From Ulva prolifera (Eukaryota > Chlorophyta > Ulvophyceae > Ulvales > Ulvaceae): 64,000 bases of DNA. The stretch spans positions 8,687,172 through 8,751,171 of the forward strand of contig CM041201.1 of NCBI GenBank assembly GCA_023078555.1. The letters are read 5' to 3'. The notes below the pieces were generated by a model. The model worked only from the letters and a program-made list of their open reading frames with translations, did no database searches and was not told where the DNA came from. Both the position numbers and the translations under genes were made by a program. Each line of letters opens with the position of its first letter. Positions within the stretch are counted from its first letter, which is position 1. This document shows positions 27,962 through 30,900 of the stretch, piece by piece.

Positions 27962-30900
27962 CTAGATGACCAGAAGGTCCTGGAAAACTGACACCAGATT
28001 CACCCAATGATACGAGCATGACTCGAGCAGTCCCTTGGTAGCTGCACATGCAGGGTCTAACAGCTGCTGCAGTTGCAGCAGCTGTTGGGACGCATCAGCC
28101 TCTTTTGGTATGCGGTCCTGGACTCGGCTTGCATCTAGTTGCCGAGCAATGTGTTGGAGCTGCAGATACGCCTGCGCTTCGGACATGACAGGCTCCATCG
28201 GCCCAACGCTGTTTGGGTCAAGTGGGCATTGCCCTGGCGCGCATGGCCCCACCCGTGCATGTTGGGTTGCCAAGGACACATCTCTGACAGCGATGCTCTG
28301 GAGATCATCCTCAGCTCTCAGGCATCCATTGTATGCCTCCTTCATCACCTCACGCGCAGCCAGAACCGCCTGCACAGAGTTTGGTGTCTCATTAGTGCAG
28401 GGATGTGGGACACCCCTCCACATGGAAGACACGCCACTTTCATAACACAACCGTTGCACAGACGCATGCGACTCAGCCTCAACACAGGCACGCCCAAAGC
28501 ACTCACCTGATTGGAGACTTGTGCGGGCGGCATCTGTGACAGGCCTTCCCTGAGCGTCGCGCAGCAGGACTCCCAGCTCGCCCGTGCCGTAAAATCTGGC
28601 AGCGCCACCTTACTCCCCGCATCATTCACCAACGGCAGCGCCGGCAAGTCCGCAAAGCGATCGTCGTCGTCCAGAACCGACGCCCCATTCATCATGTTAT
28701 CGATCTGCACAGCCACAGGCTGTCAGCCCTGCCGACGCGCCAGCCATGGCGGCAGCCTCCAACACCGCTCCGAGAGTCGCACCGCTGCAAGCTTGTCGAC
28801 CGCCGGTGCTGACCGCTTGAACGAGGAGGGGTCCAGGCCGAGGCACTCCGCAAGGCGGGCGTCCGAGGTCATGTCCAGCGGCGCACACAGCCGCGACACC
28901 ACGGGGTGCAGCTGGTGCGAGAGGTAGTAGTGCGTGTCCACCGCGAGCGCGGTGTTGTCGACGACCTCATCGGGGTGGTGCGCGCGCGCCGCGAGTCCCG
29001 CAGACTTTGCATTCGCATGCGCGTCCCTGCCGGCGTCCTTGCAGATGACGTACTGCACGACGTTGCCGGCACGCGTGCCGTCGCGGGCGCCGCGGGCCCT
29101 CATGCGTATCGCCACCTGCAGCGCCACTGCCGCTGTTCAAAACCACCGCCACGCTTCGCTGGCCCTCAGCCTGCCTGCCCACAGATCGCGTGGGCGCACC
29201 CTGACAGCAACGGCAATACGTGCGAGTGACACCATGCATATGGTGCGGACTTCTTGAGCCGCTGTCGTGAGTGTCTGCACGCAGAAAACAGGAGGCATGC
29301 GAGATGCCGGCATGCCTGGCAGGCAGGTGGGGGTGGATACGTGGCGTGGGTGGCACCTGAACGTGGGCCTGGCTCTTTGCGTCGGGGTAGTCCTCCGGGT
29401 TCTTTGTGAGCTGCTTGGTGATGACAAACTGCTTGAGCTCGATGCGCCCCTGCGACACGGCCTCGTGCACCTTGCGCAGCAGCTCGTGCACAGCCTCCAC
29501 GATGTCCTCCTGGTCTCGCCCAGACAGGATCTCCGTGAGGCACGCCTGCCCGATGTCTCGGCTGAGCTGGCACCAGTCACGACGCACGATGTCAATGCCC
29601 TTCGTCTCCAGGACCTGTAAGCAAGCAGACACCTGGGCAGCTGGCCGTGGCGCTGCATCGCGGCTCTCATCCTGTGGCTCTACACCATGCATGCATTCTC
29701 ATGGTTGGCAGAGTGGGCTGATTTCGATTGCAGAAAAACAAGCTCACAGCTGGCAAGTGTGCTTGGTGGACCTGGCTGAAGGGTGGGTTGCCCACCTGGG
29801 TGTGGCTGCCAGGAGCGGGGCCCTGCACCAACTTCATCGCAGCATACTTCTTCTTCTTCAGCAGGAGCATGCTCGCAAACACACCGTCGATGTCGATCTC
29901 AAGCAGCCGGTAGTGCTTGTTGATGGCAGCCACCGCACGCTGCCCGAGCTGCATCACCTGTGCAACGTCCATGCTGCCAGTGGAAATCATGATACTGTCC
30001 GTGTCGCCGTAAATCACCTGCACAGGAGCTTCAGTCACACCATGCCATGCCCCACCGAGCTGCCTCACAACGTGCGTCAGCTCATGCGAACGCCAGGATG
30101 ATTCAGGAGAACATCGACACCGTGTGGAGTTGAGAGGTGTCGTACGTCGAGGTTGAGGCTGCCTTGAACCAGGTCCACAGTCCGCTGCAGGATCTCTCGG
30201 CCCTGGCATGTGATGAGCTGCGCCAGAGGCTTTGCGTAGAAGCGGGATGCCGTGAAGCCGAGGCAACCGTACATGCTGTTGGCGGTCAGCTTGATGGCCT
30301 GCTGCCGAATGTCGAGCTGCTTGTACTTCACACTGTCCTTGCAGGACTTCATACTGGCCTTCACACTGCGCCTCTTCTGAACCAGACCCTGCACAAAACT
30401 GAATCGCAGCTCAGAAGTACTGAACATGGTATGCCATGGGGCCATCGCCCCGGGCGATGCTCTGACCCCAATGGAGACATGAATTGTACCACGCATGTTG
30501 CCTTGGCGCCATGCACATCTTGCTGTGATCACAGGGACACAGTCAATCAAATTGACTCTGCTGGAGGGTGCCTATGCCTTCAAGCGGAGCCGTAGACCAG
30601 GTCAAGCAGCAAGCATATGCCACAGACAGGGGGCAGGGGGTCACCTGGATGACCACGGGCAGTGGAGCCAGCGTGTTGCCACTCTGCGGCAGCGCAGGGA
30701 TGCTGTCGTCCTCTGGCCGCTTGACGGTCGTGAAGCAGATGTTGTACTCCTGGATGATGCTGGGGTACAGACTGTTGAAGTCAAGGAGCAGCACGAACTT
30801 GTTGTAGATGCCCTTCTTGGGCTCCAGCACCAGCCCACCTGCACAGACAGCCATGTGCATGGGTCCTCGAGGATCATCCTGACGACATAGCTGCGCCATG

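Follow-up and report, generated by a model that had tools for sequence, protein, structure and literature searches.

A 64,000-nucleotide stretch of DNA from Ulva prolifera (the window), located on contig C6 of a genome assembly with 88.9 Mb in 44 contigs, contains the gene for the catalytic subunit of DNA polymerase alpha (Pol alpha). This gene is the sole Pol alpha catalytic subunit found in this green-alga-like nuclear genome, and the canonical four-cysteine sites are lost from both zinc modules in the C-terminal domain of its predicted product. We consider the following reading of this loss probable: the platform of Pol alpha, B subunit and primase is most likely still built without the two sites, and the loss is one piece in a wider, patchy loss of structural zinc sites. 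The finding is larger than an earlier note on this DNA, concerned with Pol alpha, had stated: according to the predicted proteins, ligands are lost also in PRIM1, MCM7, an RPA1 gene and RPB1.

Zinc ligands of the Pol alpha C-terminal domain

The two C-terminal modules of human Pol alpha hold four cysteines each, as given in a review (PMC5333051), and C-terminal zinc fingers are described as present in all eukaryotic family-B polymerases in PMC2669801. The four protein segments by which the earlier note had illustrated the degeneration of these modules are all in frame in exons 15 and 16 of our spliced model, and the region named for them (27962-28704) is the exact span of these two exons. From residue 1240 onwards, the cysteines and histidines of the model are C1247, C1314, C1315, C1349, H1370, C1376, C1381, H1406, C1441, C1451 and H1454. 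Within module 1 (residues 1248-1333), the only cysteines are the adjacent C1314-C1315 and there is no histidine, which excludes a site of four cysteine or histidine ligands in this module independently of any alignment.

For the comparison ligand by ligand, human p180 (PDB chain 5exr_C) was used as reference. In module 1, the human KCPCPTCG is aligned with PLV-NDAG and RCSNIDCK with CCATLREG; in module 2, the region of the first pair is aligned with the human WLICEEPTCRN, and the human GPLCPA-C with GPCAPGQC. In this alignment, only C1315 and C1381 are cysteines at ligand positions, while C1376 lies one residue before a ligand, C1349 precedes the first canonical ligand of module 2 by three residues, and H1370 is found in between. 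Four cysteines in canonical arrangement are thus found neither in module 1 nor in module 2, where the first pair is replaced and the second reads CX4C, and module 2 does not contain a CysB motif with four cysteines, as known for an iron-sulphur (Fe-S) family-B polymerase. The claim that at most two pairs of cysteines are left and that the CxxC spacing is gone therefore holds with regard to the loss itself, but it had passed over the possible ligands C1349 and H1370, which lie in or beside the segments quoted. The helices between the modules are present in the p180 alignment, in agreement with the claim that the flanking helices still align.

Zinc binding by module 1 is very unlikely, and module 2, judged from its residues, is either metal-free or rewired. 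The latter is the main rival explanation: module 2 would bind one zinc via a rewired Cys3His site formed by C1349, H1370, C1376 and C1381 (CX20HX5CX4C), and only module 1 would be metal-free. These four possible ligands lie within 33 residues, with C1381 at a canonical position and C1376 one off. Against such a site speak the displacement of C1349, the loss of the second knuckle ligand and the location of H1370 within a stretch of near-zero coding signal (residues ~1364-1391, where the other frames are no better than the stated one), and we regard it as unlikely.

Up to the thumb, the protein is a normal Pol alpha. Its assignment was borne out by matches to the Pfam families DNA_pol_B (413.1 bits) and DNA_pol_B_exo1 (68.3 bits) and by a PDB search in which the top 15 of the 60 chains listed bear the name of a Pol alpha catalytic subunit (lowest E-value 4.7e-202). 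For most PDB chains used in this study, the species is our own assignment. The catalytic motifs, said to be intact, were recovered in exons 10-12 of both the model and the PDB alignment, and we take them to be the defining catalytic motifs of a family-B polymerase. All 15 introns of the model are of the GT..AG type, with lengths of 70-344 nt. The C-terminal family zf-DNA_Pol (PF08996) matches with 41.5 bits at a cut-off of 25.7, over profile positions 44-186 of 186 only, and an open reading frame that includes exon 16 gives a PF08996 match of 2.1e-9. The features of the gene are compiled in Table 1.

Table 1 Positions in the window of the Pol alpha gene, selected exons and the places of the zinc ligands.
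Feature	Position	Strand	Observation or basis
DNA polymerase alpha catalytic subunit gene	35044-27962	minus	16 exons, 1468 aa, without internal stop
Exon 10, 12-residue catalytic motif	30645..30838	minus	spliced model and PDB alignment
Exon 11, 12-residue catalytic motif	30146..30388	minus	spliced model and PDB alignment
Exon 12, motifs YGDTDS and KKKKYAA	29796..30017	minus	spliced model and PDB alignment
Exon 14, residues 1157-1267, thumb end and linker to C-terminal domain	28783..29115	minus	model and p180 alignment
Exon 15 (residues 1268-1333), place of zinc module 1	28507..28704	minus	intron 14 (78 nt) and intron 15 (137 nt) GT..AG
Place of module 1 first Cys pair, residues 1287-1305	28591..28647	minus	no Cys, no His
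Place of module 1 second pair, residues 1310-1321	28543..28578	minus	adjacent C1314-C1315 only
Exon 16 (residues 1334-1468, then the stop), with a helix, zinc module 2 and the C-terminal tail	27962..28369	minus	spliced model
Place of module 2 first Cys pair, residues 1346-1363	28280..28333	minus	other residues at the canonical ligand positions; C1349 three residues off
Module 2 second pair, residues 1374-1386	28211..28249	minus	CX4C (C1376, C1381)
Tail, residues 1452-1462, place of putative primase-binding peptide	27983..28015	minus	by position

Splicing, reading frame and gene copies

The missing ligands could also be an artefact of wrong splicing, of assembly frameshifts or of an unseen second copy whose zinc domain is intact, which we judge very unlikely. 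The continuity with human p180 is unbroken across both splice junctions in the stated frame (the LDPSSFK... segment versus human LDPTQF...NDALLGGPAQLTDEEKYRD), and the alignment holds at both ends of exon 15. The earlier note had named a frameshift in these exons and another exon carrying CxxC pairs as possible sources of error; no exon was found hidden in introns 14 and 15, and neither p180 continuity nor codon usage revealed a frameshift in exons 15-16 that would account for the ligand loss. With a codon usage table derived from only 2030 codons, the sums for the stated frame were 10.1 for exon 15 and 21.9 for exon 16, and those for the other two frames were negative in both exons. What favours an error is that, among the nine 16-codon windows of exon 15, one (codons 37-52) has a higher score in a different frame (3.9 vs 0.3) and that CRRC, CHRC and CQRC occur off-frame within exons 15-16; however, the off-frame CRRC hits a stop two residues on, and off-frame CxxC motifs are near background, with 5 in 400 codons of exons 15-16 versus 19 in 2249 codons of exons 4-14. 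An artefact would, in addition, require separate errors for the zinc losses in the four other genes described below.

With regard to a second gene, a search of the 88.9 Mb with the zf-DNA_Pol profile returned a single match (at least one, as all family-match counts in this genome are lower bounds), which is the known gene. DNA_pol_B gave at least 14 matches, located at four loci only, which we attribute to Pol alpha, delta, zeta and epsilon.

Reassignment of a codon to cysteine was also considered and was rejected, as the codons at the lost positions differ (TCT in PRIM1; GAC, AGC, GGG, TCC, GCT, AAT and others elsewhere). Intron 15, when read in the frame of exon 15, contains CNGC and CLPC nine codons apart (28458-28431, minus strand). 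These motifs are probably due to chance because retention of the intron meets a stop and removes exon 16.

Metal sites elsewhere in the genome

Metal sites of Pol alpha and of other proteins of the genome were surveyed. Seven of 25 sites were lost or broken, all of them zinc sites, and 18 were kept; since the families were hand-picked, this is not a genome-wide rate. The seven comprise modules 1 and 2 of Pol alpha, one site each in PRIM1, MCM7 and the RPA1 gene on contig C8, and two sites in RPB1, one of them with two of its four ligands gone. Pol epsilon was counted once for its three copies, and MCM3 and the second Pol I site, which was only partly read, were set aside before counting. In other eukaryotes, MCM3 is not known to carry a canonical finger.

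In PRIM1 (C5:3500880-3501197), the zinc motif reads RNSSSGTAMSRQCW compared to RRCCSSADICPKCW in the PDB chains shown, in a gap-free alignment. The human CC..C..C corresponds to Ser, Ser, Ser and Cys, such that three of the four cysteines, which we take to be the zinc ligands, are replaced by serine, all encoded by TCT, and no four-cysteine site is left. The block around the motif is otherwise close to the human chain, with 54 of 91 residues identical (59%). In MCM7 (C9:4299527-4299811, minus strand), all four finger cysteines are lost, with YLDINSG..DKGIKD in place of YTCDRCG..HDCPSDDC, and they are kept in all four PDB MCM7 chains printed. The finger lies within one open frame, 40 of the 81 columns aligned to the top PDB chain are identical, and other exons of MCM7 are recognisable around the changed finger.

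Two RPA1 genes were found, of which the one on C6 (1289785-1290054) keeps its four cysteines and the one on C8 (34348-34488) has none of the four, the ligand positions of the latter being our own reading, as the PDB alignment covered only the part behind the finger. The gene on C8 still matches Rep_fac-A_C with 50.7 bits. In RPB1 of RNA polymerase II (C6:8241095-8242341), ligands are lost at both N-terminal zinc sites: at one of them, a Cys and a His have given way to Asp and Tyr, and at the other, neither cysteine of CFFC is kept. The positions and their numbers are presumed to be those of the zinc ligands. The loss in RPB1 shows that the pattern extends beyond replication. The zinc losses in Pol alpha, PRIM1, MCM7, RPA1 and RPB1 may have a common cause.

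The 18 sites kept are two each in Pol delta, zeta and epsilon, one each in PRIM2, MCM2, MCM4, MCM5, MCM6, MCM8, an MCM9-like protein, MCM10 and the RPA1 on C6, both sites of RPC1 of Pol III and the first site of Pol I; the MCM names except MCM7 and the Pol I, II and III names except RPB1 are our own assignment. The C-terminal cysteines read CLGC..CKHC and CQRC..CTSRDC in Pol delta, CIVC..CTWC and CIQC..CQSLEC in Pol zeta, and CTVC (CTAC in one copy)..CGAC and CRRC..CPDC in all three copies of Pol epsilon. The loss is thus not general to the family-B polymerases of this genome. PRIM2 keeps four cysteines at a putative Fe-S site, which we presume to be the cluster ligands, and every site taken as Fe-S was kept. 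For Pol epsilon, the survey covered the C-terminal sites; an Fe-S cluster is also described for its catalytic domain (PMC9581978).

The C-terminal half of Pol epsilon occurs three times within ~90 kb on C4 (2099469-2100998, 2014037-2015101 and 2047869-2049140), with 98.9-99.0% identity over 4.0-4.7 kb, as against a single DNA_pol_B match (at least one) for Pol epsilon in the genome, and these copies are probably a recent segmental duplication. The MCM2-like zinc domain is present twice on C6 (337101 and 386950), ~50 kb apart, and the two copies do not differ in protein sequence within the finger.

Contact with the B subunit and possible meaning of the losses

In human Pol alpha, the second zinc site (Zn2) and the helical region give an interface of ~4000 Å2 with p70, and a short tail peptide (1447-1455) binds primase, as described in PMC5333051. 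The same text gives an Fe-S cluster as unconfirmed for Pol alpha, with only zinc seen in structures, so that the Fe-S link suggested by the earlier note is weak. In the algal genome, exons of POLA2 on C3 near 416 kb match the Pol alpha subunit B in the PDB at 8.5e-32, with approximate exon joins. The Pol alpha tail sits at the place expected for the primase peptide, behind the end of the PDB alignment, and its residues are presumed to resemble those of the human primase-binding peptide. As the helices and the B-subunit gene are present and the tail is in place, the platform of Pol alpha, B subunit and primase is most likely still built. A metal-free B-subunit interface, as had been proposed before, is plausible on these grounds. 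In such an interface, the helical bundle and hydrophobic packing would take over the role of zinc; contact with the B subunit would be borne by the bundle, and the loops that formerly held zinc would pack without metal.

Alternatively, the constraint on the domain may be relaxed: Pol alpha would be connected to the B subunit and primase more weakly or at another place, and the zinc modules would be decaying. The third-position GC content of 0.74 in exon 15 and 0.59 in exon 16, compared to 0.80-0.90 in exons 5 and 7-14, would fit such a decay, as would the first 43 zf-DNA_Pol positions, which remain unaligned. The N-terminal exons 1-4 are, however, equally low (0.53-0.61), exon 6 has a value of 0.75, no stop interrupts the frame before its end, the helices can be aligned and a POLA2 gene is present; moreover, a loss inside the highly conserved PRIM1 is unlike general decay. 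We therefore hold relaxed constraint to be improbable and prefer a platform that is still built without the two zinc sites.

Several points weigh against this preference. No relative with a Pol alpha C-terminal domain was found in the sequence collections searched. The metal sites were read by eye, with several ligand positions presumed, and the loss is patchy, with one of the two RPA1 genes and six MCM proteins keeping their fingers. AlphaFold2, run on exon 16 alone without an alignment, gave a mean predicted local distance difference test score (pLDDT) of 57.1, and nearly all of residues 29-62 of this exon, which correspond to module 2, scored below 50. Finally, C1349, H1370, C1376 and C1381 could constitute a new zinc site.

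Compared to the C-terminal domains of human and yeast Pol alpha (p180C; Pol1-CTD), the algal protein shares the catalytic core, the inter-module helices and the B-subunit partner, but differs from human Pol alpha in having cysteine at two ligand positions at most (C1315 and C1381) instead of four per module. As in the family-B polymerases as a class, the finger region of the algal protein follows the polymerase core. The rule that C-terminal zinc fingers are present is obeyed by Pol delta, zeta and epsilon in this genome, whereas Pol alpha departs from it. No report of zinc-ligand loss in Pol alpha was encountered among the titles and opening lines of abstracts in the literature searched. A different precedent is provided by bacterial ribosomal proteins, among which zinc-free (C-minus) versions of zinc ribbon proteins occur. 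The algal proteins resemble these in that a zinc site gives way to a presumably metal-free fold, and the two RPA1 genes form a pair, one with and one without ligands. Unlike in the C-minus case, family searches, whose counts are lower bounds, revealed no zinc-bearing second copy of Pol alpha, PRIM1, MCM7 or RPB1, and thus no switch between two forms was seen.

We propose, with considerable reservation, that this lineage may have shifted part of its core nuclear machinery off structural zinc, such that Pol alpha, PRIM1, MCM7, an RPA1 gene product and RPB1 would fold and assemble metal-free while Fe-S sites are kept. If true, the alga would have a replisome with a lower need for zinc, and sites thought to be universal in eukaryotes would be dispensable. 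The pattern points to a core replication machinery that can be rebuilt for less zinc. The zinc modules of Pol alpha are regarded as universal and are counted among the elements that join it to the B subunit, and a natural Pol alpha without ligands would reveal which part of this joint is essential. The losses in PRIM1, MCM7, RPA1 and RPB1 widen the question to zinc economy, or to how essential complexes lose structural metals.

In the search for relatives, the plasmid collection gave no match, and ten viral contigs matched at 23-27% identity, as judged by the match listing alone. A contig of a deltaproteobacterial metagenome-assembled genome (L038) carries a Pol alpha-like piece with in-frame stops, and the part of it aligned with the query stops short of the C-terminal domain. 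This contig starts with the Pol alpha-like piece, which lies beside bacterial genes, and the in-frame stops perhaps reflect a ciliate code; the contig is either a contamination or a chimera.
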